In this document: piece by piece, positions 1-14,451 of the stretch
Layout of the letters: each line of letters starts with the position of its first letter
Numbering within the stretch: the stretch's first letter is position 1
Origin: Candidatus Cloacimonadota bacterium
GTDB lineage: Bacteria > Cloacimonadota > Cloacimonadia > Cloacimonadales > Cloacimonadaceae
Direction of reading: 5' to 3'
Assembly: GCA_028703735.1 (NCBI GenBank)
Contig: JAQVMI010000010.1
Coordinates: forward strand, 1-14,873
Length of the DNA: 14,873 bases
The notes under the pieces: generated by a model
What the model saw: the letters and a program-made list of their open reading frames with translations, nothing else
Told to the model about the DNA's origin: nothing
Databases searched by the model: none
Translations under genes and position numbers: made by a program

Positions 1-531
1 ACCCCGAACCCCGCCGGGGGTCATATACATGTGATAAATACGTGCTCCTGTCCATTCTTCAAAGAGATCAAGCACAAAATCTCTGTGTGCCAAACACCAT
101 TGTGCCACAGTTCCCATACCAAAAGCACCACTCTGTCCCCCTGTCCACATCAGAAAACTGGCAAGACGTGAAAGCTCTAAGTTTAGCGTACGCAACCACA
201 CAGCACGTTCGGGTATTTCCACACCCAGAAGCTCTTCCACTGCTGCGGCAAAGAGGTATTCGTTAGTATCAGGCTCCGGAACACAAATTCTGCACACTAT
301 GGGAAAACAATTTATATACCTTCTGCGTTCCATTAGTTTTTCGAAGCCACGATGCAGGTAACCTACATGTGTATTGCAATTTACCACCTGGTCACCGCAG
401 ATATCAAGCTCCAGGCTCATGTTTCCGGTAACTCCGGGGTGTTGGGGACCCTGCCACATTTTTAGGTATTTCTGGCTGTCCAGGTCGTAAACTGATTTTC
501 CGTTTACTATGGGTGGATACTTGCTTTCCAT
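1..531 (-). CDS. mbxL: NuoD/MbxL-like large subunit of an MBS/MBH-type complex (partial, C-terminus off window)
   Basis: This is the N-terminal 177 residues of the 49-kDa/NuoD family, which includes [NiFe]-hydrogenase large subunits; the gene runs off the window at base 1. The family opening WQGPQHPG lies near residues 26-33, followed by HVGYLHRGFEKLMERR (about 55-70), typical of NuoD. In hydrogenases the next motif is RxCxxC; here it reads R81-I82-C83-V84-P85-E86, so the first cysteine is kept and the second is replaced by Glu, while N89-E90 matches the NE pair of NuoD. An ungapped alignment back from AVEELLG (97-103) supports this register. The half-lost metal site argues against a normal [NiFe] hydrogenase and for an Mbx/MBS-like enzyme. 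The C-terminal cysteine pair is outside the window. ATG at 531 follows the stop of the NuoC-like gene by one base, with GAGGA five to six bases upstream. In the complex this subunit would sit at the quinone/sulfur/NiFe-type active site beside the NuoB-like subunit. Confidence 0.93.
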   Translation of the reverse strand, partial: MESKYPPIVNGKSVYDLDSQKYLKMWQGPQHPGVTGNMSLELDICGDQVVNCNTHVGYLHRGFEKLMERRRYINCFPIVCRICVPEPDTNEYLFAAAVEELLGVEIPERAVWLRTLNLELSRLASFLMWTGGQSGAFGMGTVAQWCLAHRDFVLDLFEEWTGARIYHMYMTPGGVRG

Positions 532-532
532 A

Positions 533-1060
533 TCAATCCTCGGGGTAAAGCTGTTCTTTCATATATTGTTCCGGCTCTTTGTGTTGCCGTTCGCGGTTGC
601 TATAGGTGTCTTCGCAATAAACCTTGGTATCAAAATCCCTGCGCATGGGGGGTGGACCCTGCCAGCCTTCCAAAATCATCGGTTTATAAACGCCTGGGCT
701 ACCGGGAAAATCTATACCAAACATCTCATGCAATTCCCGCTGATAAACCCTTGCCTGTTCCCACAGGTGATGCATGGAATCCATCACAGGGTTGTCTCGG
801 GGGATAAATACGAAGATGCCCAAATCAGTTTTAGTAGCGTAATTATGCAGCAGGTATGTAACCTGAAACTTGCCATCTTCCAGCCAATCCACGCAGGTTA
901 CCATTACCAAATGAGTGTATCCGTGAATATCCCTGAGGTGCGTAAGCAGGCTTACCAACTGGCTGCTGGTTGCGGTAACAAAAGCTTGATTGTCCCGCTT
1001 GGATTGGTAATCTGTCAGCTCGAATTGCTTACTTAAGGTGTTAAATAGTTCTTTCATCAT
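533..1060 (-). CDS. mbxK: NuoC/MbxK-like 30-kDa subunit
   Basis: This is a complex I 30-kDa subunit homologue of about 175 residues. The family signature is clear in the C-terminal half: RELHEMFGIDFPGSP, followed by the LEGWQGPPPMRRDF stretch. It is a structural subunit of the peripheral arm that binds the NuoD-like subunit and carries no cofactor itself. The longest frame would start at TTG 1069 and overlap the NuoB-like gene by seven bases, but no ribosome binding site precedes it. ATG at 1060 or the adjacent ATG at 1057 is preferred because TAGGA lies just upstream, best spaced for 1057. The ORF stops one base before the NuoD-like start, so the two are translationally coupled. NuoC and NuoD are separate genes here, not fused as in some bacteria. 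Confidence 0.94.
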   Translation of the reverse strand: MMKELFNTLSKQFELTDYQSKRDNQAFVTATSSQLVSLLTHLRDIHGYTHLVMVTCVDWLEDGKFQVTYLLHNYATKTDLGIFVFIPRDNPVMDSMHHLWEQARVYQRELHEMFGIDFPGSPGVYKPMILEGWQGPPPMRRDFDTKVYCEDTYSNRERQHKEPEQYMKEQLYPED

Positions 1061-1062
1061 TC

Positions 1063-1761
1063 CTACCAATTATAATCCGGCATATTCCAGTCTTTGATCA
1101 CACTTTTCTGGTTTTCTTTATACCAATCGAATTTCTCCGCATACAGGTTCTGCCCTTCGGCTTTACCTGCTTTTATCAGTTCTTTCAGTTTGGAAAAACC
1201 AGCCAATACAGCTTCCGGACGTGGCATACATCCGGTAACATATACATCCACGGGGATGTATTCGTCTATGCGCTTAACCGTGTTATAAGAATCCCAATAC
1301 ATGCCACCATTTATAGCGCAGGAGCATACTGCCACCACAAACTTGGGTCCCTGCATCTGTTCGTAGCTGCGTACTATGCGTTTTAGGGTTTTGATAGATA
1401 CATAGCCACCAATCATAAACACGGAGGCTTGCCTGGGGGTGGGACGTGGCTGCATACCCAATCTGCTTATATCGTATCTGGCAGTAACCAGAGGGCGCAA
1501 TTCAATAGCACCGCAACCTGTACCAAATGCCAATATCCACAGGCTGTTAGAACGAGCCCAATTGAAGAAATTCTCCATAATCTGCCAGCTTTTCTTAGCT
1601 GGTTGGGGACGCGCATCACAAAACCAATCCTGTTCTTCTTCCGATAATCCGGCGTTGGTTAAGGATTTATCGTCTTTGCGCCAATCCGGATAATCCGCTA
1701 TAGGTGTTTGGGATACTTCCACCGTGAGATTACTATCATTTTTTATATCGTCATCTTTCAT
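1063..1761 (-). CDS. mbxJ: NuoB/MbxJ-like small subunit with altered cluster cysteines
   Basis: This is a 20-kDa/PSST-family electron-transfer subunit of 232 residues, with an acidic N-terminal extension of about 60 residues before the conserved core. The core motifs are FGTGCGAIEL (79-88), LGMQPRPTPRQA (101-112), VCSCAINGGMY (145-155) and TGCMPRPEA (176-184). In complex I the first motif carries two adjacent cysteines (ACCAxE); here it is C83-G84, so one ligand is missing. Instead an extra cysteine, C146, stands two residues before the conserved C148; C178 completes the set. The subunit should hold the proximal [4Fe-4S] cluster next to the NuoD-like active site, either with three conserved ligands, or four if C146 substitutes. 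That resembles the site-differentiated cluster reported for archaeal MBS. The ATG lies 12 bases after the NuoH stop, with GGAG eight bases upstream. Confidence 0.95.
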   Translation of the reverse strand: MKDDDIKNDSNLTVEVSQTPIADYPDWRKDDKSLTNAGLSEEEQDWFCDARPQPAKKSWQIMENFFNWARSNSLWILAFGTGCGAIELRPLVTARYDISRLGMQPRPTPRQASVFMIGGYVSIKTLKRIVRSYEQMQGPKFVVAVCSCAINGGMYWDSYNTVKRIDEYIPVDVYVTGCMPRPEAVLAGFSKLKELIKAGKAEGQNLYAEKFDWYKENQKSVIKDWNMPDYNW

Positions 1762-1773
1762 GCATCATACTCC

Positions 1774-2682
1774 TTAAAAGCTGAAAAGCAGCACAGAGAT
1801 TATTCCCAATATAGTGGGATAGGTAAGGAAAAAGCGGATGGAATCCTCTGTTCTAAAGCGTGGATAGGCTGCCCCTACAAACACGCTAAACATGTATATC
1901 CAGAATGTCTTTAACATCAGGATGAGCAGGTTTGTGGCACCTCCAAAGAACAAGTTCATAAACAGCACCAGCTTTGCTCCGGCAAAAATGCCTCTATTTG
2001 TGGCAAGCATGCCGAGGAAGGAACTGTGATACTCTGTAGGAGGTCCTATGGGAATCTCCTGAGGAGCAATTACTACAGAGAAAGGATTATACATATTCAT
2101 GCCCAACATGGAAATCATCGCGGTAATCACAGCCAAGGGATTGGTAAAGAGCGTCCAGCGTAGAAATCCACCTTGCTGTGCTGCTACTATTTCGGTGATA
2201 TTAAGCGTGCCATATTGTGCCACCAAGCTTATCACAGACAATGCAAAGGGAACTTCGAAAGCAGTCATTTGTGCTAAGCCGCGGCTTACTGCAATAGCAG
2301 AATAGGGATGACCACCTTCTCCGGCACCCAGTGCCATACCAAGCTGACCAAAGAAGATGAAATACATCACTAAGAGCACATCGCCGCTAAGCGAGAAATT
2401 AGAGAAATATGCAGAGCCAAACAGCACCGGGATAAACATGTAGGTGCCAATGCCACCGGCTATGCGAAACACGGGACCTAAGTAGAACATAATCCCATGG
2501 GTGATGGCTGTGCGCTTGGCATTATTCTTGATAATATCTATAAAAGGCTGCCAGACTGGAGGTCCCAGCCTTCCCTGCACGCGGGCAAAGATTTTATGCA
2601 CCATTCCATTAAGGGTTAAGCCCCAAACGGTTACCACCCCCAAAGAAATGAATGCCCAGAATACCTTAAATGCGATGCTCAT
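1774..2682 (-). CDS. mbxM: NuoH/MbxM-like membrane subunit
   Basis: This is a 302-residue polytopic membrane protein of the ND1/NuoH family, the subunit that joins the redox arm to the membrane arm. The cytoplasmic loop motif RVQGRLGPPVWQPFIDIIK (about residues 34-52) is diagnostic. So are GEGGHPYSAIAVSRGLAQMT, with charged and polar residues of the entry channel, and a later loop PQEIPIGPPTEYHSSF, which corresponds to the NuoH EAELV/GY region. The family length is about 300-330 residues, so it looks complete. The start codon overlaps the stop of the double antiporter gene as TAATG. In the Pyrococcus mbx operon the M gene also follows H', whereas in mbh it lies near the end; the order here is of mbx type. 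Confidence 0.95.
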   Translation of the reverse strand: MSIAFKVFWAFISLGVVTVWGLTLNGMVHKIFARVQGRLGPPVWQPFIDIIKNNAKRTAITHGIMFYLGPVFRIAGGIGTYMFIPVLFGSAYFSNFSLSGDVLLVMYFIFFGQLGMALGAGEGGHPYSAIAVSRGLAQMTAFEVPFALSVISLVAQYGTLNITEIVAAQQGGFLRWTLFTNPLAVITAMISMLGMNMYNPFSVVIAPQEIPIGPPTEYHSSFLGMLATNRGIFAGAKLVLFMNLFFGGATNLLILMLKTFWIYMFSVFVGAAYPRFRTEDSIRFFLTYPTILGIISVLLFSF

Positions 2683-5600
2683 TACTTCACCCCCAGAAGC
2701 AGATATAGGAAGATTGTGTACAGGAAGATGTGTAGCATATAGGTTTGACCGTTGCCGGTATAGATTCTTGCCAAGGTGGCTGATAGGGAATGGAATCCTT
2801 CTGCTACACCTTTATAAAAAGCAGTCACCCGCGGTTTAACCAAGAAACCCAGTGCTTTTTCGTAATGGGCGAACATATTATAGGCAAAATGAGTTGTCCA
2901 GGGTTTATAAGGACGTTCTGCGGCAAACACTATATTGAATTGCTTCACCTTCTGTGTTCTGGCATTTACCAACAGAAGCCAAATAAGCGGAATTATAAAC
3001 ACACCCATGGTAACATACATCACCAGATTGCCGTTCCAGTTACCATGAAGGGTGGGTGAATTCAGCACTAAATTATAGCCATCCCAATTAAGCCATTCCG
3101 GCTTGGCGATATAATCCCCCACAGCCAAAGAAAGAGGCTTTGTGATAATATTGGGGAAAACAGATATTGCCATGATAGCCATAATGAAGATTCCCTGTGG
3201 GATGATAAGCCAGATTGGTGCTTCTTTCACATCCTTCTGGTTAGGTTTTGCCTGCCCCAAAAACACTGTGTGGATAAGGCGATACAGATACAGGAAAGCA
3301 ATGGCACTGGAGAAGAACACCAGGGCAGTCTGCAAATAGCGTCCTTGCTCCAATAGCGAGGTATAGATAAACCACTTAGAGCCAAAGCCACTTAAAGGGG
3401 GAACCCCTGAAACAGCAATAATACCCATTAGAACGCTGATAAAGGCAATTGGCATCTTCTTGATTAAACCACCCATTTCATACATATTGCGGGTTCCGGT
3501 TCTTAAAAATACCGCTGCCATTGCCATGAAGATAAGCCCCTTGAAGAACAGATGATTAACGGCAAGATACAGGGCTGAAACCCATCCCAAGTGTGTCATA
3601 AGCGATAAACCCACCACTATATAGCCAAGCTGGCTCATACTGGAATATGCAAGCAGCTTTTTGGCATCCTCCTGAAAAACCGCCATCAGAGCACCAAAGA
3701 AAGCAGTGAACACACCAATCCAGCCTAAAGCCATCATGCTTATGCTACTTGAAGATACAAATCTGGATATCAAGATTAACACCATTAACAAACCAAAAAC
3801 TCCTGCCTTGGAGAGCACCGAGGATAGAATGCTGCTGGTTTCGTCATCTGCCTCACTATATGCCGCAGGTAACCAGTAATGAACCCCCACTGCACCCATT
3901 TTTATCAAAAATGCTACCCCAAGAAGCAGTGCAGGAAGCCAATCTATAGCCATAAAATTCGCTTGCAGAATTATTAGATAACCCTCTACAGTATTTGGCA
4001 TCATTGAGAATCCCGCTAACATCAAATAAGCCCCAAAAGAAGAGAATACTATAAAAAGCAGTGCTGCCACTCTGGCTTTTTTCCCCTTTAGAATAAGCAG
4101 GTAGGCAGCAAGTGTCATCAGTTCCCAAGCTAAGAAAAATTGTAATTTGGTGCTTGCCAGAACAATGTTACCCAGGGCAAAAATTAACATAGTAAGTGAT
4201 GGGAAAAATCCTTCTGCTGCCCCCTGGTAACGCATAAAGGCAAATATTTGCACGATACTTCCCCCCACAAGGATTAGGGCAAATAATTGCCCCATAAGCG
4301 GAAGAGGAGGTAGAAGCACAAACCATCCCCATAGAGATAGAGCGGCAATGGCAAGAACCCCTTTCAGTTTTACGGGAAGGATGTCTATAAGTCCAAACAA
4401 AATGAAAGCCATTATTGGATAGATGCTATTAGTACCTATTTGTGGATACATCAGGGTGAGGTAATAAGATACCGATGCTAATCCAAGGGCAGATACCATT
4501 AGCGGAAACAGCTTACTGAACGGCTTTTCCAGAGTGCTTTGGCTTTCGCCCTTTGCAGCAAAACCCAGCCACCGCATAAGGTAAACCACTTCCAACAGCG
4601 AACCTATCAATAAACCCGCCATCCACATCCAGGCTTGGGAAGCTCCAAAAATCTGGATAATCTGCCATTTGGCAAAGAACGAAGGAAAGGGTGGAAACCC
4701 CATTAAGGCTACTGCGAATATTCCGAAAATTATCAGCAAACCGCTATCGGAACGCAAAACACTCCAATCCTGCAAATTATTCCGCTTTGTTACGCCACAA
4801 AGCCAAAACAAGCCGGACTTTGCGAATAAATTTGTAATAAACAAGCCTAAGGCAATTCTTAATACCATCCCCTGCGGTAAGCCAAGCAAAGACAAAGCAC
4901 CCAGGCTGAACACCAAAAGACCTGTTTGAGCAGTGGATGAATAACCCAGTAACCGGCTGGCGTTTTTCTGCCTTAAAGCGATTAAATTTCCAAAAACGAA
5001 GCTGATTAAACCTGCGCCTGTTAAAATCTCTAATAGTGCCGGAGTGAACAAGGGCATCAGTTTGTAGTATAGAAACAAGATAGCAGCAGTATTCACCGAG
5101 GAAATTAAGGACGCTACTCCCTTATCTGCAGATTGGTATAGATCCAGAGCCCATCCGTTTGCCGGAAATGGCTTTAGCTCTATAAAAACTCCAATTGCCA
5201 TCAAAAACAAAGCGACAGTATATCCGGGAGTTTTTATAGGAGACAGGGATAGCCAGGTATCTATATTTAGTGTTCCGGTATAACGATAGGCAAGCACAAT
5301 GCCAATTAGAAACAGAGTGCTGGATATTCCACCTGCCAACATGTATTTAATGCCGGCAACAAGAGAATTCTTATTCTGATCTACCGCAATAATGGCATAG
5401 GTGGCTATAGAAAGGATTTCCAGAAAAACAAAGGAATTGAATATATCCCTGGTAAGCACCAAGCCATTAGCCCCTAAAAGCACCAATAGATATAGAGCAA
5501 TCGCCTGAGCACCGCTTTGCAAAAACCGCCGGTACAGATAGCTTGCCCCCAAAAATCCAAACAGATTTAACAAAGCAACCAGAACAGCCTCTACTACCCC

Positions 5601-5828
5601 GAATTGTAAAGAAATGGATAATGGAGCAGAGAAACCTGCACTGAAAACCACTACAGACAGATTAGGGTTATATAGTAAAGTATTTAGCTGCCAAAATCCC
5701 ATACCGCTGGCAATTAGCAGAACTGCATATATGGTATAGATGCTAATTTTTCGGTGCAGTTTATCCAAAAGCGCAATAAGGAATGCAGTAATTAAGAACA
5801 TGGCGAGCAAGAGCATTGGGTTTACCAT
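2682..5828 (-). CDS. Fused double MrpD/NuoL-type antiporter subunit (MbxH-MbxH' fusion) with MbhI-like tail
   Basis: This single 1048-residue membrane protein contains two complete Proton_antipo_M modules. Module 1 (about 1-465) has the TM5-type glutamate E137 in FVFLEI, the TM7-type lysine K219 in ELKPFP, an LLGYSSTAQTG loop at 293-303 and the TM12-type lysine K337. Module 2 (about 466-925) repeats the pattern with E569 in AWEL, K643 in FLIKMG, K674, LLAYSSMSQLG at 725-735 and K763 in FFKG. Residues about 930-1048 add a membrane segment, a polar helix stretch and a last membrane segment, as expected for the lateral-helix part of MbhI/NuoL. Both modules keep the residues used for ion translocation, so two pumping units are predicted. 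Archaeal mbx operons encode H and H' as separate genes; here they are one. The start overlaps the MrpC-like gene by seven bases and has GAGGAG six bases upstream. No internal stop or frame change is seen. Confidence 0.93.
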   Translation of the reverse strand: MVNPMLLLAMFLITAFLIALLDKLHRKISIYTIYAVLLIASGMGFWQLNTLLYNPNLSVVVFSAGFSAPLSISLQFGVVEAVLVALLNLFGFLGASYLYRRFLQSGAQAIALYLLVLLGANGLVLTRDIFNSFVFLEILSIATYAIIAVDQNKNSLVAGIKYMLAGGISSTLFLIGIVLAYRYTGTLNIDTWLSLSPIKTPGYTVALFLMAIGVFIELKPFPANGWALDLYQSADKGVASLISSVNTAAILFLYYKLMPLFTPALLEILTGAGLISFVFGNLIALRQKNASRLLGYSSTAQTGLLVFSLGALSLLGLPQGMVLRIALGLFITNLFAKSGLFWLCGVTKRNNLQDWSVLRSDSGLLIIFGIFAVALMGFPPFPSFFAKWQIIQIFGASQAWMWMAGLLIGSLLEVVYLMRWLGFAAKGESQSTLEKPFSKLFPLMVSALGLASVSYYLTLMYPQIGTNSIYPIMAFILFGLIDILPVKLKGVLAIAALSLWGWFVLLPPLPLMGQLFALILVGGSIVQIFAFMRYQGAAEGFFPSLTMLIFALGNIVLASTKLQFFLAWELMTLAAYLLILKGKKARVAALLFIVFSSFGAYLMLAGFSMMPNTVEGYLIILQANFMAIDWLPALLLGVAFLIKMGAVGVHYWLPAAYSEADDETSSILSSVLSKAGVFGLLMVLILISRFVSSSSISMMALGWIGVFTAFFGALMAVFQEDAKKLLAYSSMSQLGYIVVGLSLMTHLGWVSALYLAVNHLFFKGLIFMAMAAVFLRTGTRNMYEMGGLIKKMPIAFISVLMGIIAVSGVPPLSGFGSKWFIYTSLLEQGRYLQTALVFFSSAIAFLYLYRLIHTVFLGQAKPNQKDVKEAPIWLIIPQGIFIMAIMAISVFPNIITKPLSLAVGDYIAKPEWLNWDGYNLVLNSPTLHGNWNGNLVMYVTMGVFIIPLIWLLLVNARTQKVKQFNIVFAAERPYKPWTTHFAYNMFAHYEKALGFLVKPRVTAFYKGVAEGFHSLSATLARIYTGNGQTYMLHIFLYTIFLYLLLGVK

Positions 5829-6193
5829 TTTAGCTCCTCATAATCATTGATATTCAGGCTATTACCAACCTTATACAGCCTGACTGCAAAGCTTAGAAGC
5901 AAAGCAGTAACTGCCAGCCCGATAACGATTGCAGTTAATACCAGTGCCGAAGGAACCGGATCCACTACCTTTCCAAGTACCTGAATCCCCCCTTCTGCAT
6001 TTTGGCTAATATTCACAGCCTTATCTACTATTGGGGCAGTGGCATGCTTCACATAGCCAATTGCCACAATCACCAGATGTGTGCCTGTATCAAGAATGGA
6101 AAATCCAATAATTATCCTGATGATGTTCTTCTTGATTAACATAGCCCATATCCCGATTAACATCAGCAATAATCCACAGATTAGCACCATCAT
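5822..6193 (-). CDS. mrpC: MrpC/MnhC (MbxG, NuoK-like) subunit
   Basis: This is a small NuoK-like protein of 123 residues with three predicted membrane segments (about 2-20, 25-45 and 75-105). The sequence IIIGFSILDTGTHLVIVAIGY is typical of MnhC/NuoK. A central polar insert (about 50-75) precedes DPVPSALVLTAIVIGLAVTA, the conserved DPLPQALVLTAIVI-type motif of the family. It packs between the MrpB-like and MrpD-like subunits and takes part in the lateral ion path. The start overlaps the upstream stop as ATGA, with GGAGGTA nine bases before. A second ATG follows directly, so the start could be one codon later. Confidence 0.94.
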   Translation of the reverse strand: MMVLICGLLLMLIGIWAMLIKKNIIRIIIGFSILDTGTHLVIVAIGYVKHATAPIVDKAVNISQNAEGGIQVLGKVVDPVPSALVLTAIVIGLAVTALLLSFAVRLYKVGNSLNINDYEELKW

Positions 6194-6888
6194 AATTCGG
6201 TACCTCCGTGTTGCAGGGAATCTATCACGCTACAAAGCTCCGAACCTCCCTTTATCCCGATTATGCTGTAAATTATTGGCACAGCCCCGGTAGATACAAT
6301 ATCCAGCCACTTTCCTGCAGGTAAATAGCGGGGGTCTAAGAAAGAATTTGCACCCAGTAGCACCAAACCTGCCAAACCCAATAACACATAGATAAAGCCG
6401 GATATGGATTCACTGAAATGGATCAGATTATGTGAAAAATGAAAACTGATGTTTGCCATCACAAGTAACAAAAAGCCAGAGGCAATTACTACCCCTCCTT
6501 GAAACCCACCACCGGGACTAAGATGTCCATGAGCAAAAATATACACTCCAAACAGAACTATCAGAGGTGTTAGTAGTGAGGCACCGGTACACAGAATCTC
6601 GGAGCACTTTCTCCTGTGGTTAACCATATCATGCTTGCGTTTTAGCAAAAATCCAACTCCCGCAGTAGCCAAAAATAGCACCGTAACTTCACCCAGGGTA
6701 TCTAAACCACGGTAGGTAACTACAATAGCGGTAACAACATTTGGCATATTTAGCTCATTCACCGATCCTTGAACATAGCTTGTGGCAAGCGGATTAAGCT
6801 TGGTGGGAGTGCTAAACTCCATCACAAACGGGAGAAAGATGTAGCCAATGCCAATAATAGCCACAAAAACCAATAAATACTTAATCAT
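6190..6888 (-). CDS. MbhE + MrpB/MnhB fusion protein (MbxF-like)
   Basis: This is a 232-residue membrane protein with two parts. Residues 1-85 resemble MbhE, the last segment of MrpA: an N-terminal hydrophobic helix, then VVTYRGLDTLGEVTVLFLA (about 57-75), the conserved RGxDTLGE signature. Residues about 95-230 are an MnhB domain with HGHLSPGGGFQGGVVIASG, the family's most conserved motif. In Pyrococcus mbh these parts are separate genes (mbhE, mbhF). The mbx operon lists no mbxE, which would fit a joined protein, though I have not aligned it. The start overlaps the DUF4040 gene by eight bases, within GGAGGAGAGGATG. Confidence 0.92.
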   Translation of the reverse strand: MIKYLLVFVAIIGIGYIFLPFVMEFSTPTKLNPLATSYVQGSVNELNMPNVVTAIVVTYRGLDTLGEVTVLFLATAGVGFLLKRKHDMVNHRRKCSEILCTGASLLTPLIVLFGVYIFAHGHLSPGGGFQGGVVIASGFLLLVMANISFHFSHNLIHFSESISGFIYVLLGLAGLVLLGANSFLDPRYLPAGKWLDIVSTGAVPIIYSIIGIKGGSELCSVIDSLQHGGTEL

Positions 6889-7129
6889 CCTCTCCTCCTT
6901 TTACATGCTTCATCGCATACAAAAAAACCACAGTGGTAAGCCCTGCCCCAATTGTTGCTTCGGTCATTGCCACATCTGGTGCTGCCATTAATAAATAGAT
7001 TATGGATGCGGAGAGACTTATAATCCCCGAAGCAATTAAGGCGGTTATGGTTTTTTTGGTAAACACAGCATAAACAGCGGCACCAAGGCTAATAACAATC
7101 AACAGGATTAAGGCAAATATCTCAGGCAT
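6881..7129 (-). CDS. mbxD: MbhD-like DUF4040 subunit (MrpA C-terminal region)
   Basis: This is an 82-residue protein with three predicted membrane helices. The motif APDVAMTEATIGAGLTTVVF (about residues 50-69) is the DUF4040 signature shared by MbhD and the C-terminal part of MrpA. It bears the acidic D/E pair in a membrane segment that contributes to the ion path. It overlaps the MrpG gene by eight bases and the MbhE+MrpB gene by eight bases. No full-length MrpA exists here; this and the next gene together replace its C-terminal region, as in MBH/MBS complexes. Confidence 0.93.
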   Translation of the reverse strand: MPEIFALILLIVISLGAAVYAVFTKKTITALIASGIISLSASIIYLLMAAPDVAMTEATIGAGLTTVVFLYAMKHVKGGEDD

Positions 7130-7457
7130 CTTGCTCCTCCACTTTATCGTCCGCCAAATTATCTCTGATAGATCTATCGGTTAGTTTTATTCCCGAAAAA
7201 TGCGCTGCCCTTGCCAAGGCACTGGAACTGATAGGATTTGTAAAAAGCACAAACAAGATCAATAAAAGTATCTTGGGCAGCCAGGCAGTATTAGCCAATC
7301 CAATTCCCAGCAAAGTCATCATCGTCCCCAAGGTTGTGGCTTTTGTTCCAGCTTGCATGCGATTGTAAACATCTGGCATCCTTAGCACACCCATTGAACC
7401 CAAGAATAAAAATAGGGCACCTAACAGGCTAATAATTGAAGCTATAAAAAGCATCAT
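7122..7457 (-). CDS. mrpG: MrpG/MnhG (MbxC) subunit
   Basis: This is a 111-residue MnhG-family protein. It shows the conserved GVLRMPDVYNRMQAGTKATT segment (about 23-42), then LFTNPISSSALARAA (about 71-85), both hallmarks of the family. Three membrane helices are predicted, followed by a charged C-terminal tail. The ATGA overlap with the MrpF gene implies translational coupling. It forms the sodium/proton antiporter-like end of the membrane arm with MrpE and MrpF. Confidence 0.95.
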   Translation of the reverse strand: MMLFIASIISLLGALFLFLGSMGVLRMPDVYNRMQAGTKATTLGTMMTLLGIGLANTAWLPKILLLILFVLFTNPISSSALARAAHFSGIKLTDRSIRDNLADDKVEEQDA

Positions 7458-7723
7458 AATCCACCTTCCAAGTAACGGGCTACGGAAATCACACCTAAAA
7501 AACTAAGCAGAGCATAAACCAGAGCTACATCTACATACACTATTCTGCCAGCCCTCATCGCTATCTGAATAATAAGGTTTATTCCACAAATAGTAATAAC
7601 ATCCAGGGCTACTACCCTATCGGCAGCAGTGGGACCCAGGTAAAACCTGATAAAGCTTAACAATATGGCTATTAGGGAAATGTAATAGGCAATATCGAAT
7701 ATTATGTAGGCGTATTCAACCAT
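7454..7723 (-). CDS. mrpF: MrpF/MnhF (MbxB) subunit
   Basis: This is an 89-residue protein with three membrane helices and the MnhF signature GPTAADRVVALDVITICG (about residues 30-47), including the conserved aspartates used in ion passage. The start lies inside the end of the MrpE gene, with an eight-base overlap and a strong GGAGGTGA ribosome binding site upstream. Confidence 0.95.
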   Translation of the reverse strand: MVEYAYIIFDIAYYISLIAILLSFIRFYLGPTAADRVVALDVITICGINLIIQIAMRAGRIVYVDVALVYALLSFLGVISVARYLEGGL

Positions 7724-8210
7724 ACATCACCTCCAGATGCTTTTCGAAAGTGCTTACAATTGCCACAGTAGCAGATTCGATATCATCAGATTTTATATCT
7801 ATCCAGTGAATATAGAGGTATTCACCCTTTGCTTCCACTGTCATGGTTCCCGGAGTTAAAGTAATGGAATTTGCAAGCACAATCCTACCCAGCTTGCTGT
7901 GCAATTTGGTGCGTACTTTTACAATGCCGGGGTTAATAGGTAAACTTGGGGATAACACTCTGATGGCAACATCAATTGCGCTTTTAAACAGCTCTCTTAG
8001 AAACACAAAAATAAACTTGATACTGCAAAACAGTGCCTTTGGGTTTAGTTTCACATTCTCCAGAATTGCCAATCTGGAAGAAAATATTAAACTGATCGTT
8101 GCGGACACCAACGAGCCTATAATGAACTCGTTGCGGGTTACCTCGGATAGCACAAGCCACAATCCCGTAAGGATTAGATAGCTAAGAATAAGTGCCTTTA
8201 CTCTGCGCAT
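7716..8210 (-). CDS. mrpE: MrpE/MnhE (MbxA) subunit, first gene of the operon
   Basis: This is a 164-residue MnhE-family protein. Two or three membrane helices lie in the first 75 residues, followed by a cytoplasmic domain with NSITLTPGTMTVEAKGEYLY (about 114-133) and HWID, the family signature. It is the promoter-proximal gene; the next one upstream is divergent and over 600 bases away. ATG at 8210 is preceded by AAGGGGGATAA. Its role is in assembling or forming the distal Mrp part of the membrane arm. Confidence 0.95.
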   Translation of the reverse strand: MRRVKALILSYLILTGLWLVLSEVTRNEFIIGSLVSATISLIFSSRLAILENVKLNPKALFCSIKFIFVFLRELFKSAIDVAIRVLSPSLPINPGIVKVRTKLHSKLGRIVLANSITLTPGTMTVEAKGEYLYIHWIDIKSDDIESATVAIVSTFEKHLEVMYG

Positions 8211-8667: not shown

Positions 8668-8826
8668 AAGTTACCCACTCATCACGAAAGAGAATATCTT
8701 TGCAAATGTGCTCCGCATAGTTAGATTGTTTATTGGATAGCAGAGCCACGCCCAAAGACAATTTCCGAAATGCCCAAAATTTATAACGCTGGCTCAGGTT
8801 AACCAAGCTTGTTAAAAGGTGGAGTA

Positions 8827-10218
8827 ATGTCAGTTTCGTCCATATACAAAGTTCTAAAGCCCTGCCCTATCCCAAGGGAGCAAGTGATTACAAGATCGGT
8901 AATGCTGATCTTGGCAGCCTTTGTATGCTTGAATATTCTTAGCTCTCCCCTATCTGCCTGTGCGATGAGTGCCATGATAACAGTTCAGGGAAAACAGTTT
9001 AACAGCTTTAAACCCCAAGGCACAGCAGCAGAATATAATCTCTACAATGACCCCTGGGATTACTTTGGTTTTGTAATGGCAAATTCCACCCCTTATTCCA
9101 ATTCTGATGGCTATGGTGTAGTAGCCTACAGCGAAGGGAATCCCACCCTCTCCTCCCGAAACATGTGGTATAAAAGGATTAAAACTGCCGAAGATTTTGA
9201 TAGAGTATATTACACCGGAAGATACCTTAGTGCTGGTTCCGAAAATGCTGATTGGGATTTTGACGTTTTGGATAACGCATTATTTTCTGTGATGAACCCC
9301 CACAATCCCTTTACTATAGCCTTGTGCCATGTAAGAAATGCGAGCGGTGTTACTTATGGAAATCACCCCTTCTGGTTCAATTTCCGCAGAAAAACTTATA
9401 CTTTTATGCATAATGGCTATTGCAACTCTGCCAGAGAATTTATGATCCATCGGATTTTGGAAACTGATCCGGATTGGTTCGCAAAATACCCCAGTAATTA
9501 CTTCGAAGATATCGATCCCTTCCAATGGGTGGATACAGAAGTGATGTTTCATTACATTATGAGCTATGTAAAAGCCAGCGAGGGAAACACTCTATACGGA
9601 ATAGCAAATGCTTTACGAGGCTTACGAAGCTTTCTGGAGGATCCCAGAACCGGAGTTTATAATTTTATCATGTCCGATGGAGAACAGCTTTATGCCTTCC
9701 GCAGCACTCCCAATCAGGGAACAAATTCCTACTACAAGCTGTCCTACAAAGTTTTTCCCGACTCATTTTATGCAGTTCGAACCCAAACCCCTTCCTCTGG
9801 TGATACAGAACTGAAACAAGCAGAATTAGTGGTATTCTCTCGCAACCATAAACCACGGCATTATTCAGTGCTAAAAAGCCTGAATGCGAATCCTTTCGAG
9901 CCAGAAAATATTATCACCACAACGCGAAGTATCTTGGAATTCCCTGGGATAAACCTGATGATAACCCCTAATCCCATTTCATCTACAGTTGGACAATTGA
10001 AGGTTTCCCTAAATCTACCGGGAATTACCGGCGCGAGTAAAGGCAAGGTGAAAGTATATAATCTTAAGGGACAGTGCGTATTATCCCGGGATATTACCCA
10101 GCTTGCCGGCACTTATATGCACCAGATTGATCTTTCCGGTTTTCCCATGGGTGTGTATCTATGCAGAGTTAATCTGGCAGGGTTATCCACAGTTTCCCGC
10201 TTCACAGTGGTGAAATAA
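8827..10218 (+). CDS. Secreted class II glutamine amidotransferase-like Ntn hydrolase with C-terminal sorting domain
   Basis: The ATG at 8827 follows AAAGGTGGAG and gives 463 residues; a TTG at 8809 would add six. Residue numbers here count from that TTG. A basic N-terminus and hydrophobic stretch (about 29-50) end in SPLSA, then C51-A-M-S. Cleavage before C51 would expose the N-terminal nucleophile required of class II GATases. Family motifs follow in order: HVRNAS (174-179), GNHPF (184-188), HNG (201-203), VDTE (241-244) and SDG (289-291), closest in style to YafJ/GlxB-type proteins. Residues about 383-469 form a separate beta domain with TPNPISS, VKVYNLKGQ, DLSGFPMGVYLCRV and FTVVK, as in T9SS type A sorting or FlgD-Ig domains. 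I infer an exported amide-hydrolysing or amidotransferase enzyme; its substrate cannot be told. LSAC also fits a lipobox, so a lipoprotein is the alternative. A choloylglycine-hydrolase-like relative is a less likely reading. Confidence 0.85.
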   Translation: MSVSSIYKVLKPCPIPREQVITRSVMLILAAFVCLNILSSPLSACAMSAMITVQGKQFNSFKPQGTAAEYNLYNDPWDYFGFVMANSTPYSNSDGYGVVAYSEGNPTLSSRNMWYKRIKTAEDFDRVYYTGRYLSAGSENADWDFDVLDNALFSVMNPHNPFTIALCHVRNASGVTYGNHPFWFNFRRKTYTFMHNGYCNSAREFMIHRILETDPDWFAKYPSNYFEDIDPFQWVDTEVMFHYIMSYVKASEGNTLYGIANALRGLRSFLEDPRTGVYNFIMSDGEQLYAFRSTPNQGTNSYYKLSYKVFPDSFYAVRTQTPSSGDTELKQAELVVFSRNHKPRHYSVLKSLNANPFEPENIITTTRSILEFPGINLMITPNPISSTVGQLKVSLNLPGITGASKGKVKVYNLKGQCVLSRDITQLAGTYMHQIDLSGFPMGVYLCRVNLAGLSTVSRFTVVK

Positions 10219-10412
10219 GGGTCTTACAACACACCCAGGCACACCAGCACACCATCACTCCAGAACCCCCGCACCCCCAAACACCCTTGTATTTATACAT
10301 CCTTACACTCAAAACACCCTTGCATTTATACAAGGATAGCCCAAAAATAACCTTGACATTTATCAGCCTCCGCTATTAAGTGGTTTTATGATAGAAGGAT
10401 GGAGAAACTGCA
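10219..10412. other. Intergenic region with three 33-base-spaced direct repeats
   Basis: The first part (about 10225-10286) is rich in C and A and almost free of T on the plus strand, with many CACACC and CCCCC runs. Then the sequence AAACACCCTTGTATTTATACA (split as ACACCCTTG + TATTTATACA) recurs three times with falling fidelity up to the ATPase gene. No clear terminator hairpin follows the amidotransferase stop. Confidence 0.6.
10279..10364 (+). repeat. Three direct repeats, period 33 bases
   Basis: Copies begin at 10279, 10312 and 10345. The first two differ at one of 21 positions; the third is more diverged but keeps AACCTTG and ATTTAT. Equivalent G bases fall at 10289, 10322 and 10355, so the spacing is exactly 33. 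The second copy includes the inverted pair CCTTG...CAAGG, and the third contains TTGACA (10353-10358), a possible -35 box. The layout suggests repeated protein-binding sites ahead of the ATPase gene. Confidence 0.6.
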
Positions 10413-11759
10413 ATGTTTTATCGTAACATAGTCTCAGATTTAGAATCCTGGTCAAAATCTGCCTATCGCAAATCACTGATCTTGCGAGGTGCCAGACAGG
10501 TTGGAAAAACCACCGCTGTGCGTATGTTTGCTGCGCAGTTTGATACTTATATAGAACTGAACCTGGAAGAAGAGGCAGATAGGGCACTTTTTATAAGCGG
10601 AACGGATGTGCAGAAGCTTTATAATCTGATTAAACTTGCCAAAAATGTGGTGAATACGGGTAAAAGAACTCTGCTTTTTATTGATGAGATTCAGTATTCC
10701 GCAAATGCCATGCTAAGTTTACGGTATTTTTACGAAAAAATGCCAGAGCTTTATGTTGTAGCTGCGGGATCATTGTTGGAAGCATATCTGGCACGGAAAG
10801 GCATGGAGGTTTCGGTAGGCAGGATCGAATATCTGTGGGTTTATCCGCTTGATTTTGAAGAATTTCTGACAGCGCAAAAGCAGCAGGCACTACTACTTCA
10901 GTTGGCTGTATTCCCTTATCCTGATTATGCCTATTTACCTCTTAAAGAGCAATTTACGCAGTTTTGTCTGGTGGGAGGAATGCCGGAAGCTGTGAAAGCA
11001 TGGATCGAAACCAATGATATAATGCAGGTTAGGCATATTCAATCCAGCATCATCAATACCTATGCGGATGACATTGGTAAATATTCCAATTCGCCTGAAC
11101 AGAAAGAAGTTATCCTGCATGTAATGAATTCGGCGTATTTCAATATCTGCAAACGGATAGATTTTGCTGGCTTTGGCGATACAGGATATCGTAGCTTAGC
11201 AGTTAAACAAGCTTTCATGCTGCTCTGCCAAGTGTCCCTTTTCACATTGTTTTATCCAACTGGGGCATATAACTTGCCTGCTTTGCCAAATTTTAGAAAG
11301 AAACCGAAGCTATTGGCTTTCGACCTTGGAATTGTGAACTATGTGGCGGGAATTCAGGACAAATATTACAGTGAAGATAAGCTGCATTCCATCTTTAAAG
11401 GGGCTGCCATGGAACAGATTGTGGGACAGCAACTACTTGGCATGCAGCATAGACATTCCTTCCAACTGAAGTATTGGGTACGCGAAAACAGAAGCTCCAG
11501 CGCAGAATTGGACTATTTGATAGAGTGGCACAATCTGTTAATTCCCATCGAAGTGAAATCCGGGAAAACCGGGACTATGAAGTCACTTTTCCTGTTTATG
11601 GAAGAATCCGATTCCAAAGTGGCAGTGAGGGTTTATGATGGAACTAACAAATGGGAGACTGCCAAAACTGCTAAAGCAAAGGAATTTATCCTGCTGCACA
11701 TAAATCTGGGATTGGTAACCCGGTTGTTTTACTATTTGAGTGAAGGCGGATTTGGTTAA
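10413..11759 (+). CDS. AAA_14 / DUF4143 family ATPase
   Basis: This 448-residue protein belongs to the archaeal/bacterial P-loop ATPase family with a C-terminal DUF4143 domain. Walker A is GARQVGKT (26-33) and Walker B is LLFIDE (87-92); GSLLEAYLA (119-127) is the conserved sensor-region sequence. The C-terminal domain has AELDYLIE (364-371) and IPIEVKSGK (377-385), an ExD...ExK arrangement like a PD-(D/E)XK nuclease fold. No cellular role is established for the family, which often occurs in many copies per genome and beside mobile or toxin-antitoxin genes. ATG at 10413 has GGAG about nine bases upstream. Length is usual for the family and the gene looks intact. Confidence 0.93.
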   Translation: MFYRNIVSDLESWSKSAYRKSLILRGARQVGKTTAVRMFAAQFDTYIELNLEEEADRALFISGTDVQKLYNLIKLAKNVVNTGKRTLLFIDEIQYSANAMLSLRYFYEKMPELYVVAAGSLLEAYLARKGMEVSVGRIEYLWVYPLDFEEFLTAQKQQALLLQLAVFPYPDYAYLPLKEQFTQFCLVGGMPEAVKAWIETNDIMQVRHIQSSIINTYADDIGKYSNSPEQKEVILHVMNSAYFNICKRIDFAGFGDTGYRSLAVKQAFMLLCQVSLFTLFYPTGAYNLPALPNFRKKPKLLAFDLGIVNYVAGIQDKYYSEDKLHSIFKGAAMEQIVGQQLLGMQHRHSFQLKYWVRENRSSSAELDYLIEWHNLLIPIEVKSGKTGTMKSLFLFMEESDSKVAVRVYDGTNKWETAKTAKAKEFILLHINLGLVTRLFYYLSEGGFG

Positions 11760-11830
11760 TACTCTCTGTAGGCAGGCTCTATATCAATGCGTGGACTGCC
11801 AATACCTACCGTGGCGTCCCAAAGAAGTAG

Positions 11831-12090
11831 TGATAAACCTTAAAGCAGGAGTCATTCAGTCCCACCACGTATTTCATACTTTCCCATTAAGCAGGAGTCA
11901 TTCAGCCCCACCACGCATTTCGGGATTTTCCATATTTTCGGGGGCTGAAGGACTCATTGCGTACGGATGTAGCTATGAAGGATTCCGCATGCGTACGGTG
12001 GTGCTCTATTGGTTCCCGCATCAGTCCTTGCCACCAAAAAAAACAGAGACATTTTCAAGGCTATCAACGGTGGCAATGACTCCTGCTAAA
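11831..12090 (-). repeat. MITE-like interspersed repeat, left copy
   Basis: Read on the minus strand, the order is: AATGACTCCTGCT end box (12087-12075 on the complement), box A with GGTGGCAAGGACTGATGCGG (12035-12016), box B GAGTCCTTCAGCCCC, then two copies of box C ending in GACTCCTGCTT (11921-11889 and 11875-11843). The same boxes occur in the same order on the plus strand at 14493-14675. The two box C copies are direct repeats with period 46. AAGCAGGAGTCATT at one end and AATGACTCCTGCT at the other form terminal inverted repeats. Confidence 0.75.
11843..11921 (+). repeat. Tandem duplicated box of the MITE-like element
   Basis: AAGCAGGAGTCATTCAG(T/C)CC followed by CACCACG(T/C)ATTTC occurs at 11843-11875 and again at 11889-11921. 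Only two of 33 positions differ. The right-hand element carries one such box, so this is a local duplication. Confidence 0.8.
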
Positions 12091-12349
12091 ACAGCCTTCG
12101 TTTAACTCTCAACTAAAGCCGTTATTAATACAGGTAAGTGCAAAATCCCCAAAGGCTTCAGTTGAAAGTCAAACGGTCACCCTGCTAAGAAAGTTCTGCT
12201 TGACGAAATTATTGGGTTATTATTTTATCGGTTCACTCGCAAAAACAGTAGGTTCAGGTTAGCTAAAGATACACCAGAATTGCGTTTATTTATACAAGTG
12301 CCAAGGCAGACTAAGGATACCAGAATATCTACGGAAATAATGCACTAAG

Positions 12350-12365
12350 TGGCACTGGGATAGCA
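12350..12365 (+). promoter_or_regulatory. Sigma54-like -24/-12 motif (doubtful)
   Basis: TGGCACTGGGATAGCA has GG and GC at the correct spacing for a sigma54 promoter, and matches all but two of the fixed consensus positions. However, transcription would start near 12376, inside the AAGGAG ribosome binding site (12374-12379), leaving almost no leader. It is therefore a weak candidate. Confidence 0.2.
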
Positions 12366-12384
12366 CTATAAACAAGGAGACCGC

Positions 12385-14451
12385 ATGAACAAGGTTTTTA
12401 TTTTTATCGCCCTGATTATCTTTTGCAGCATTATTTACGCTCAAACAGAGGACTGGGTGTGGGCAAAGCAAACCGGGGGTACAGGCAGTGACCTTGGCTC
12501 TGGAATCGCTACCGACAGCAGCGGAAACAGCTATGTTACCGGGTGGTTTAATAGCACAGTAACTTTAGGCAACACAACGTATACCAGTAACGGAGGAGAA
12601 GACATCTTTATAGCTAAGTTAGATGCCAGCGGGAGTTACTTATGGGCAAAAACTACTGGTGGATATAGTACTGATTATGGCATGTGCATCGCTAATGATA
12701 GTTTCGGAAATAGCTATGTAACTGGGTCTTTTGAAGGCACAGCTACTTTTGGGACTATCACGTTAACAAGTATTGGATATAGAGATATCTTTATCGCCAA
12801 GATAGATACTCATGGTAACTGGCTGTGGGTACAACAAGCTGGTGGGATAAGCAATAGCTACAGTGGAGGAGAAGGAATCGACCTTGATAGCAGTGGCAAT
12901 TGCTATGTGACTGGGTATTTTGAGAATACTGCTACTTTTGGTTCCACAGTCCTAACAAGCAGCGGATATGGTGATGTCTTTATCACCAAGCTGGATACTA
13001 ATGGAAACTACTTATGGGCTAAGAAAGCTGGAGGAATTAACGATGAAATATGTTACTGTATTGCAGTTGACAGCAGCGGAAACAGCTATGTGATGGGTGA
13101 TTTTGGAGATTCAGCTACATTTGGTACAACTTTGCTAACAACTGGTGATTACACCAATACATTTATCGCTAAATTAGATACAAATGGAACATGGCTTTGG
13201 GTAAGACAAATTATTGGAACACAAATTATTGAGCAATTTGGTTCAGTAGCAACCGCAGGAAGAGGTATAGCCACTGACGATATTGGTAATTGTTATGTGA
13301 CAGGATGCTTTGCAGGCAATGGAATTTTTGACTCTACCACCCTAACCAGCAGTGGCCATACCGATATCTTTATTGCAAAGTTGGATACCAACGGTAATTT
13401 CCTTTGGGCAAAGCAATCCGGAGGAACTTTATTTGACGATGGTTTTGGCTTAGGTATTGCCACCGACAACAGCGGAAATAGCTATGTTACGGGGCGTTTC
13501 AGTGGCAATGCAATTTTTGGTAACTATACACTAATCAGTAACGGAGGTTATGACATCTTCATTTCTAAGTTGGATACAAATGGAAATATTCTTTGGGCAA
13601 AGAAAGCCGGTGGTATTATTGATGAAGATATTCCCATTTCCACCGACGCAGGGAGAAGCATTGCTATCGACACTATGGGTAATTGCTATATAACGGGTTG
13701 GTTTTCTGGCACAGCCACTTTTGGGAATAATCTACTCACCAGCAGTGGAGCTCAAGACATTTTTATCGCCAAGTTAGCTCCTGATGGAGTTATCGTACTC
13801 CTTAACGACAGCTCCCTTGACTTTGGAACAACTTACTTTGATCACTATTCGACATGCGATTTATGGCTTAGGAACATAGGAACAGCTACCTTAACAGTCG
13901 ATTCACTTGCCTTCATGCTTACTGACACACCCTTTGAAGTAATGGGGCTTACCTTGCCATTAAGTATTGCAGTTGGCGATAGTGTTGGTCTCCATATCCG
14001 CTTTACTCCTTCGGTATCTGGCTCAGTGTTAGATAGCCTTATCATATACAATAACTCCATTAATCTACCCCGTGCGGCTATCCGTTTGAATGGAACAGGA
14101 GTGTATATGCCACCTTTGCCACCGGAGGATGTGACTTTGGTGATGGATGGCAACAATGCCATTATCAGTTGGGATGCGGTAACCGAAACCGAATTACACA
14201 CTCCTATTGTGCCGGATTATTACCTGGTATTCTACAACGGCTCTTCTGACTCTGAAAACGGTATATACTACTATTTATGGGATACTCCCGGTTTACAATT
14301 CACTCACCATTTGGTAGGGCTCCATGCCCAACACATGTTCTACCGTGTGGTCGCTTATAAATACTACGGACGGGGTGTATTTGACCTTACTTCATTAGGG
14401 TTACAGCCTGGCATGCCGGAAGAAGAGGTGTATAAAATTTTAGGTTATTGA
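12385..14451 (+). CDS. Exported SBBP-repeat beta-propeller protein with HYDIN/ASPM-like and Fn3-like domains
   Basis: This 688-residue protein begins with a signal peptide (1-19, cleavage after IIYA). Seven SBBP repeats cover about 20-468; each has an SGNxYVTG-type strand (cores near 47, 108, 171, 232, 301, 364 and 432), then a TATFG strand, a D-IFIAKLD strand and LWAKxxGG. Seven units suit a closed seven-bladed propeller. Residues about 475-572 resemble an ASPM/SPD-2/Hydin-type 'choice-of-anchor' Ig domain (SLDFGTTY, LRNIGTATLTV, IRFTPSVSG, LNGTG). Residues about 575-665 look like a fibronectin type III fold. The short tail is not a recognisable T9SS sorting domain. AAGGAG lies five bases before the ATG. 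No catalytic residues are visible; a surface or secreted binding role is inferred. It is a single-gene unit bracketed by inverted repeat elements. Confidence 0.92.
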   Translation: MNKVFIFIALIIFCSIIYAQTEDWVWAKQTGGTGSDLGSGIATDSSGNSYVTGWFNSTVTLGNTTYTSNGGEDIFIAKLDASGSYLWAKTTGGYSTDYGMCIANDSFGNSYVTGSFEGTATFGTITLTSIGYRDIFIAKIDTHGNWLWVQQAGGISNSYSGGEGIDLDSSGNCYVTGYFENTATFGSTVLTSSGYGDVFITKLDTNGNYLWAKKAGGINDEICYCIAVDSSGNSYVMGDFGDSATFGTTLLTTGDYTNTFIAKLDTNGTWLWVRQIIGTQIIEQFGSVATAGRGIATDDIGNCYVTGCFAGNGIFDSTTLTSSGHTDIFIAKLDTNGNFLWAKQSGGTLFDDGFGLGIATDNSGNSYVTGRFSGNAIFGNYTLISNGGYDIFISKLDTNGNILWAKKAGGIIDEDIPISTDAGRSIAIDTMGNCYITGWFSGTATFGNNLLTSSGAQDIFIAKLAPDGVIVLLNDSSLDFGTTYFDHYSTCDLWLRNIGTATLTVDSLAFMLTDTPFEVMGLTLPLSIAVGDSVGLHIRFTPSVSGSVLDSLIIYNNSINLPRAAIRLNGTGVYMPPLPPEDVTLVMDGNNAIISWDAVTETELHTPIVPDYYLVFYNGSSDSENGIYYYLWDTPGLQFTHHLVGLHAQHMFYRVVAYKYYGRGVFDLTSLGLQPGMPEEEVYKILGY

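Follow-up and report, generated by a model that had tools for sequence, protein, structure and literature searches.

A 14,873-nucleotide stretch of DNA from a Candidatus Cloacimonadota bacterium (GenBank assembly GCA_028703735.1, contig JAQVMI010000010.1), called the window below, carries an operon for an Mrp-linked membrane complex of the Mbx/MBS type. On the evidence of its reading frame, its domain matches and the gene order, a 1048-residue protein of this operon is a head-to-tail fusion of the neighboring genes mbxH and mbxH'. An initial annotation of the window had proposed such a fusion of the antiporter subunits H and H' in an MBS-like operon, and the three lines of evidence agree with it. 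In the archaeal membrane-bound sulfane sulfur reductase (MBS), as that annotation also stated, H and H' are separate chains (6u8y_H and 6u8y_X in the Pyrococcus furiosus structure). The fusion is real and widespread; it is old, and it is present in many bacterial phyla.

The fused H-H' protein

The protein is read from a single ATG-to-stop frame without an internal stop, running from 5828 to 2682 on the minus strand of the window. Its parts are listed here.

2682..5828, minus strand: fused H-H' antiporter protein, 1048 aa; evidence from frame, domain matches, homologues and predicted model
4449..5828, minus strand: module 1 (MbsH/MrpD-like), residues 1-460, transmembrane helices TM1-TM14 in the model
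4425..4454, minus strand: junction, residues 459-468, 10 residues in 107/107 aligned sequences, model helices 437-460 and 466-480
2685..4433, minus strand: module 2 and tail (MbsH'-like), residues 466-1048, TM1-TM16 and helix HL in the model

Two stretches of the protein matched the Pfam family Proton_antipo_M, with 268 bits in total. In NCBIfam, residues 3-437 matched 'NADH dehydrogenase subunit N' (profile positions 4-443 of 494) and residues 443-1043 matched 'subunit M' (profile positions 7-610 of 613). The best relatives by sequence in the PDB were 6u8y_X and 6u8y_H, both antiporter chains of P. furiosus MBS; 6u8y_X scored 205 bits, with its best stretch at residues 475-1041. Module 1 resembles P. 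furiosus MbsH, and module 2 with its tail resembles MbsH' (TM15, helix HL, TM16). Subunit M and MbsH' were the best matches of module 2, and to call both modules MrpD, as the initial annotation implied, is inexact: in the description of the MBS structure, MbsH was superimposed on MrpD and MbsH' was set against MrpA (PMC7684303).

The search for other proteins of about 1050 residues, suggested by the initial annotation, returned 2159 proteins at E<=0.001, many of which were ordinary single antiporters by length limits. Among the best 120 listed, 117 were 1035-1062 aa long, so chance is not an issue. The alignment used below holds 107 of 121 sequences (the window and the 120 listed homologues); three of the 14 omitted were shorter than 1035 aa. 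The nearest shorter proteins (best 120 of 159 matches) mostly looked like pieces, and several were named 'partial'; one of them, P0123 (468 aa, 45%, covering all of module 1), may represent a gene that is split or broken. Database names of some homologues were generic or wrong, such as 'NADH-quinone oxidoreductase subunit F', so the complex is easy to overlook.

Distribution and integrity of the fusion

The frame was examined in 80 related loci from species genomes, the best 80 of 380 confirmed stretches, and was uninterrupted across both modules in 79 of them, several being cut only by contig ends. The loci belonged to ten named phyla, and the majority came from metagenome-assembled genomes, although one, L027, is from the cultured Prolixibacter denitrificans DSM 27267: Bacteroidota 31, Cloacimonadota 17, Spirochaetota 9, Fermentibacterota 6, Fidelibacterota 5, Pseudomonadota 4, Calditrichota 2, and Fibrobacterota, Krumholzibacteriota and Delongiibacteriota 1 each, with 3 loci lacking a rank. 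A stop near residue 465, named in the initial annotation as evidence that would speak against a fusion, was thus absent from 79/80 loci. The remaining locus, L041 (8001-11129; Marinilabiliales, counted under Bacteroidota; on a 754 kb contig), had stops in HH' at codons 476, 509 and 583, the first of them near the junction. Because of the two further stops in HH', a stop in nuoH and a broken gene downstream of nuoD (the N-NfnL gene described below), we read L041 as a decaying operon and not as a clean split into H and H'.

Among 117 Cloacimonadota genomes, a frame spanning the junction was found in 33 (26 full length and 7 cut pieces), and 3 further genomes had close pieces that stop short of the junction. 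No internal stop was found in any of these 33 frames or 3 pieces; the early frame ends in G044 and G076 were contig ends. Three genomes of the same genus as the window, given as 99% complete, had no match, so presence is patchy. The nearest named relative of the window was HGW-Cloacimonetes-3 (Cloacimonadota; locus L005).

Predicted structure and the junction

A structure prediction, also proposed in the initial annotation, was built from the 107 sequences and gave a mean pLDDT of 88.6 and a pTM of 0.89. Module 1 had 14 helices, the last at 437-460, and module 2 had 14 helices, the first at 466-480. After module 2 came a C-terminal tail, which had been called MbhI-like, with TM15 at 933-954, helix HL at 1000-1023 and TM16 at 1027-1045 (labels by analogy with MbsH'); residues 957-983 were poorly modelled, with pLDDT below 50 for most. 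All 14 + 16 transmembrane helices are thus predicted to be retained, with the topology of both modules kept. The 14 helices of module 1 would put both of its ends on one side of the membrane, so that a direct join would keep both topologies.

The junction, residues 459-468, was exactly 10 residues long in 107/107 aligned sequences, and block means over 451-480 were 87-93 in the model. The fusion is 63 residues shorter than MbsH and MbsH' combined, and loss of a helix at the junction, either TM14 of module 1 or TM1 of module 2, had been expected; this was rejected because the model has both 437-460 and 466-480. The residues lost relative to separate H and H' are predicted to fall in loops and in the C-terminal tail of module 1.

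In a fold comparison with known structures, whose rows hardly test module 2, several NuoL/ND5 chains aligned to module 1 and onward to residue 1032 or 1033. These alignments suggest a modelled position of HL across module 1, in keeping with MBS, where HL is described to tie MbsH and MbsH' (PMC7684303). In a separate Foldseek search the first row was 6u8y_X.

Conserved residues of the two modules

In the initial annotation each module was given one glutamate and two lysines, E137/K219/K337 and E569/K643/K763. All six residues are present and each was invariant in 107/107 aligned sequences, as were K387, E413, H650, K674, H759 and K818. The two sets, however, do not correspond throughout, because the TM7 partner of K643 in module 1 is E217 and not K219. 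E217 was E in 96 and D in 11 of the 107 sequences, and MbsH has E219 at this position; K219 is an additional lysine of module 1, where MbsH has E221. K219 as the partner of MbsH E219 was rejected by alignment count, which pairs E219 with E217 and E221 with K219. At position 333 the residue was H in 55, N in 51 (including the window) and G in 1 of 107.

At the TM8 site, where MbsH has K250 and module 2 has K674, residue 248 of module 1 was A, G, T, S or V in 107/107. Unfused bacterial H proteins had E there in 6/7 and T in 1/7, and two fused proteins of a second type (fused B, below) had L.

A histidine-rich TM7-TM8 loop had been ascribed to module 2 only. H650 does occur there, and module 1 has N224 at its position, but this is a single histidine and the loop is not rich in histidine. 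MbsH has N226 at this place, and because it shares the lack, the comparison indicates that the lack of a loop histidine in module 1 predates the fusion. To take the difference as a sign of divergence between the modules was therefore an overstatement, since it was inherited from unfused MbsH. Judged from the alignment, the changes in module 1 of the fused clade are the lost TM8 charge (K250 of MbsH) and the invariant K219.

Unfused relatives and origin of the fusion

H and H' were found as neighboring separate genes, in the same operon order, at six Cloacimonadota loci (L083-L088) and one Fermentibacterota locus (L099), with H of 493-507 aa and H' of 618-643 aa, measured stop to stop. At least seven unfused pairs exist in the set, which includes the 117 Cloacimonadota genomes, and the sample is small. 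Genomes G019 and G092 contain fused and unfused forms, and G126 contains a fused protein of the common type (fused A), a shorter fused B and an unfused pair. Fused B was found in Fermentibacterota at L098:8590-11547 (986 aa) and L100:8385-11435 (1017 aa), again stop to stop, and is about 973 aa from the likely start. It shares 30-36% identity with the window modules and sits in its own full operon, beside a Rex-like gene.

Of 81 fused-A rows available, 22 were used in a joint tree of 65 module rows, 32 with enough columns (35 offered) in a tree of subunits J, L and M, and 18 in a careful tree of module 2. In the joint tree, a quick tree with long outgroup branches, fused module 1 formed one clade (support 100 in the SH-like approximate likelihood ratio test, SH-aLRT) adjoining unfused H, and fused module 2 formed one clade (99) adjoining unfused H'. 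The careful module 2 tree supported the fused clade at 100/98, with archaeal MbsH' as the nearest group (89/84). In the tree of J, L and M, support was 99 for fused A, 92 for A with B and 94 for the unfused group, though long branches connect L088 and the remaining unfused rows. Since the fused modules form one clade each, a single fusion with later spread by descent and transfer is the simplest reading. The placement of Fermentibacterota inside a Cloacimonadota group would be an example of such spread. The fused complex is a lineage of its own, with loci in the ten named phyla.

Operon and redox subunits

All genes of the operon lie on the minus strand, in the order mrpE-F-G-mbhD-mbhE/mrpB-mrpC-HH'-nuoH-nuoB-nuoC-nuoD, and the window ends in nuoD. 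The gene order matched that in related loci. The genes around the fusion are listed here.

7716..8210, minus strand: mrpE-like subunit, 164 aa (PF01899, 130 bits)
7454..7723, minus strand: mrpF-like subunit, 89 aa (PF04066, 63 bits)
7122..7457, minus strand: mrpG-like subunit, 111 aa (PF03334, 88 bits)
6881..7129, minus strand: mbhD-like subunit, 82 aa (PF13244, 71 bits)
6190..6888, minus strand: mbhE and mrpB in one subunit (as MbsE), 232 aa (PF20501 and PF04039)
5822..6193, minus strand: mrpC/nuoK-like subunit, 123 aa (PF00420, 78 bits; TIGR00941)
1774..2682, minus strand: nuoH/mbxM-like membrane anchor, 302 aa (PF00146, 160 bits)
1063..1761, minus strand: nuoB/mbxJ-like subunit with three-Cys proximal cluster motif (GTGCG, CSCA, TGC) (6u8y_J, 231 bits, gapless)
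533..1069, minus strand: nuoC/mbxK-like subunit (PF00329, 94 bits)
1..531, minus strand: nuoD/mbxL-like subunit, first 177 aa, cut by the window end (NF004739, PF00346)

Subunit J was long enough in 73 of 83 fused loci and L in 64; for the seven unfused loci the numbers were 7 (J) and 6 (L). Eleven loci (L001, L082, L089-L097) were omitted from this count, taken as copies of genomes already included. At MbsJ positions 25, 28, 29, 93 and 123, all 73 fused loci with J, window included, read G-C-G-C-C. The position of MbsJ Cys25 was thus Gly in 73/73 fused loci, in contrast to Cys in 7/7 unfused loci, and three cysteines (C28, C93 and C123 of MbsJ) remain for the proximal cluster. A complex I row, L101 (with ND5, 49 kDa and 20 kDa Pfam matches), reads G-C-C-C-C, with the tandem Cys. 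The window J aligned with MbsJ without a gap and therefore retains the short loop of MBS. Sulfane reduction by MBS is reported to be abolished by ferricyanide and recovered with ferrous iron. In MBS the three-Cys cluster is described as the catalyst, and a C25A variant was still active (PMC7684303).

In the large subunit MbxL, the N-terminal CxxC persists in many members. The C-terminal CxxC was absent from all 61 MbxL proteins, 59 of which reach this end, the other two, L006 and L037, being truncated ahead of it. At the other three Ni-ligand positions, the 64 fused loci ranged from three Cys to none, with Cys at three of the four Ni-ligand positions in 11/64. A complete four-Cys [NiFe] site did not occur in the MbxL of relatives.

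In relatives, the gene after nuoD encodes an MbsN-like two-cluster ferredoxin part joined to an NfnL-like flavin adenine dinucleotide (FAD)/NAD(P) flavoprotein. This MbxN-NfnL gene was recognized by Pfam in 4/4 scanned loci (L005:14420-16207, L018:14370-16241, L027:14435-16237 and L061:14646-16517), with NfnL and MbsN PDB matches in one protein. By BLAST it was found in 8/9 fused loci of the G-numbered genomes, L094 ending before the gene, in 6/7 unfused loci (all six that reach the gene) and in 2/2 fused B loci. A gene for a Rex-like redox repressor (Rex senses NADH) lies upstream of the operon in seven loci (L007, L024, L047, L050, L098, L099 and L100); a DNA-binding N-terminus and a nucleotide-binding domain were found in 3/3 scanned. 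The MbxN-NfnL join after nuoD, the change of Cys25 to Gly in J and the loss of the module 1 TM8 lysine are new observations of this analysis.

Divergent genes adjoining the operon (window 8809-14451) encode a Por_Secre_tail protein with a weak GATase_4 match, an AAA_14/DUF4143 ATPase and a beta-propeller (SBBP) protein.

Comparison with known complexes

The hallmarks of an Mbx/MBS-type complex were found together: Mrp E, F and G, MbhD, MbhE/MrpB, MrpC, H, H', NuoH, NuoB, NuoC and NuoD in one operon, two antiporter modules with TM15-HL-TM16 of the H' type, and a three-Cys proximal cluster. A large subunit without the four-Cys [NiFe] site was seen in relatives, the window MbxL being cut at 177 aa. 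P. furiosus MBS (6U8Y) has the same kinds of subunits, and its gene order is, we assume, that of the window operon. Its chains were the best sequence matches of the H, H', J, L and N parts, and it shares the three-Cys proximal cluster, the lack of a complete Ni site and helix HL in the tail. An MbhE-MrpB fusion was dropped as a difference from MBS, because MbsE is described to hold both parts in one chain (PMC7684303). The differences are that one chain replaces two for H and H', that fused J has Gly for MbsJ Cys25, that module 1 lacks the TM8 Lys and has Lys at the position of MbsH E221, and that MbxN of relatives is joined to an NfnL-like flavoprotein.

The unfused Mbx operons share the operon order as far as their contigs reach, together with MbxN-NfnL, whereas their H and H' are two genes with about 30% identity and their J keeps Cys25. 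Thermotoga maritima Mbx, likened here by description, is a 13-subunit bacterial MBS homologue proposed to reduce sulfur (PMC9431562). The hydrogenase MBH (6CFW) also has an Mrp-derived membrane arm with NuoH/B/C/D homologues, but is described with one antiporter subunit, a separate MbhI and four Ni cysteines (PMC7684303). The module fold is common to NuoN, NuoL, NuoM, MrpD and MrpA chains. In complex I, however, the pumps are separate chains, NuoB has the tandem Cys and there is a quinone site; Mrp antiporters have separate chains and no redox arm, whereas the window operon continues directly with nuoH, nuoB, nuoC and nuoD. Fused NuoCD and NuoBCD have been reported (PMC12361115). Among the open-licence PMC papers listed, none was found to report a natural H-H' fusion, which weighs little as evidence of absence.

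Discussion

We consider it probable that the window encodes a fused-pump complex of the Mbx/MBS type, which arose by one fusion, keeps both modules intact and probably reduces sulfane sulfur or polysulfide. Module 2 would adjoin the NuoH-like anchor and module 1 would adjoin MbhD, as in MBS, with HL running back across module 1. The MbxN-NfnL protein, whose gene follows nuoD in relatives and would lie beyond the contig end here, would take up electrons from NAD(P)H and/or ferredoxin and pass them on to the proximal [4Fe-4S] cluster held by three cysteines. At this cluster the substrate, by analogy with MBS probably polysulfide or sulfane sulfur, would be reduced, and its reduction would drive proton translocation through both joined modules, while the Mrp-like distal part would exchange Na+ for H+. 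The fusion would tie the pumps during assembly and fix one H per H'. We accept as right the proposal of the initial annotation that the fusion fixes the order and 1:1 stoichiometry of the pumps and can serve to probe how modules evolved. What we say of sulfur reduction, of the donor NAD(P)H and of the part played by the fusion is inferred.

Several points weigh against this interpretation. The tie between the fused clade and archaeal MbsH' was moderate only (89/84, long branches), and A with B was supported only at 92 in the tree of J, L and M. Because the window nuoD is cut, only relatives show the Cys of its C-terminus and the gene downstream. The fold comparison does not single out MBS, as MrpD and NuoN chains score like MbsH. 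With its NfnL-like part, the complex could catalyze NAD(P)H/ferredoxin exchange and not sulfur reduction.

The in-frame stops of L041, one of 80 loci, speak for an artefact of assembly or sequencing, or for an isolated mutation, but this reading is refuted by independent genomes: the other 79 are uninterrupted, the lengths of the listed homologues agree, and L041 is damaged elsewhere in HH', in nuoH and in the N-NfnL gene. We regard it as practically negligible. If the chain were cut after synthesis, or if an internal start yielded free H', the complex would have two chains as in MBS. The constant and confidently modelled junction argues against either; M473 falls within the helix that opens module 2, a place where the alignment consensus has no conserved Met. 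We hold such a two-chain product to be quite unlikely. H and H' may also have fused more than once, for example separately in fused A and in fused B of Fermentibacterota. Fused B is distant and about 75 residues shorter, just seven unfused pairs were compared, and the other subunits join A and B at 92. Yet A and B fall together, apart from the unfused genes, in the module 1 clade (100) and the module 2 clade (99), and they share Gly at MbsJ position 25, K219 and the lost TM8 charge of module 1, which makes repeated fusion improbable.

A different activity was also considered for the complex. The N-terminal CxxC of many MbxL proteins and the three Ni-ligand cysteines in 11/64 speak for a group 4 [NiFe] hydrogenase (Mbh). 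In a paper on Cloacimonadota, the Mrp-linked complex of Tenebribacter, Stygibacter and Zophobacter, perhaps that of this operon, has also been named a group 4g Mbh (PMC8542988). However, none of the 59 MbxL proteins that reach the C-terminus has the C-terminal CxxC, the MbsJ-type three-Cys cluster is present in 73/73, and the L005 MbxL is nearer to 6u8y_L (324 bits) than to MbhL 6cfw_L (127 bits); a hydrogenase is very unlikely. In L018 (Tenebribacter burtonii), a member of a genus labelled group 4g [NiFe] Mbh (PMC8542988), the MbxL of the fused operon has no C-terminal CxxC, and if the label rests on this operon, its hydrogenase is doubtful. A quinone reductase working like complex I would fit the two pumps, the NAD(P)H-type module and the partial or full loss of Ni ligands. 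Against it, the quinone-binding residues of the 49 kDa subunit, His and Tyr (PMC7684303), are matched by Thr and Val in the one relative compared, L005. In addition, J lacks the tandem Cys known from NuoB, and MBS chains match better than those of complex I (J 231 vs 138 bits, L 324 vs 219 bits). We therefore judge a quinone reductase unlikely, though less so than a hydrogenase.

Returning to the fused-pump complex of the Mbx/MBS type, we suggest tentatively, at somewhat less than even chance, that it may represent a clade of MBS-like, NAD(P)H-linked complexes that is widespread in bacteria and has no name so far, with one pump fusion, loss of the fourth cluster Cys without the tandem Cys of complex I, and loss of the TM8 charge in the distal pump. 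Such a clade would form a branch of the series from MBH through MBS to complex I, with a graded loss of Ni ligands from three to none.

When complex I evolution is modelled in modules, every pump counts as an individual addition. The protein described here unites two pumps in one 30-helix chain, apparently joined once and found in many phyla. The unfused version persists alongside it within the phylum, in some cases within a single genome, which provides natural paired material. These pairs let one ask whether the motions of the two pumps have to be coupled, which role the TM8 lysine plays in the distal pump, and whether the three-Cys proximal cluster defines the chemistry of the complex.

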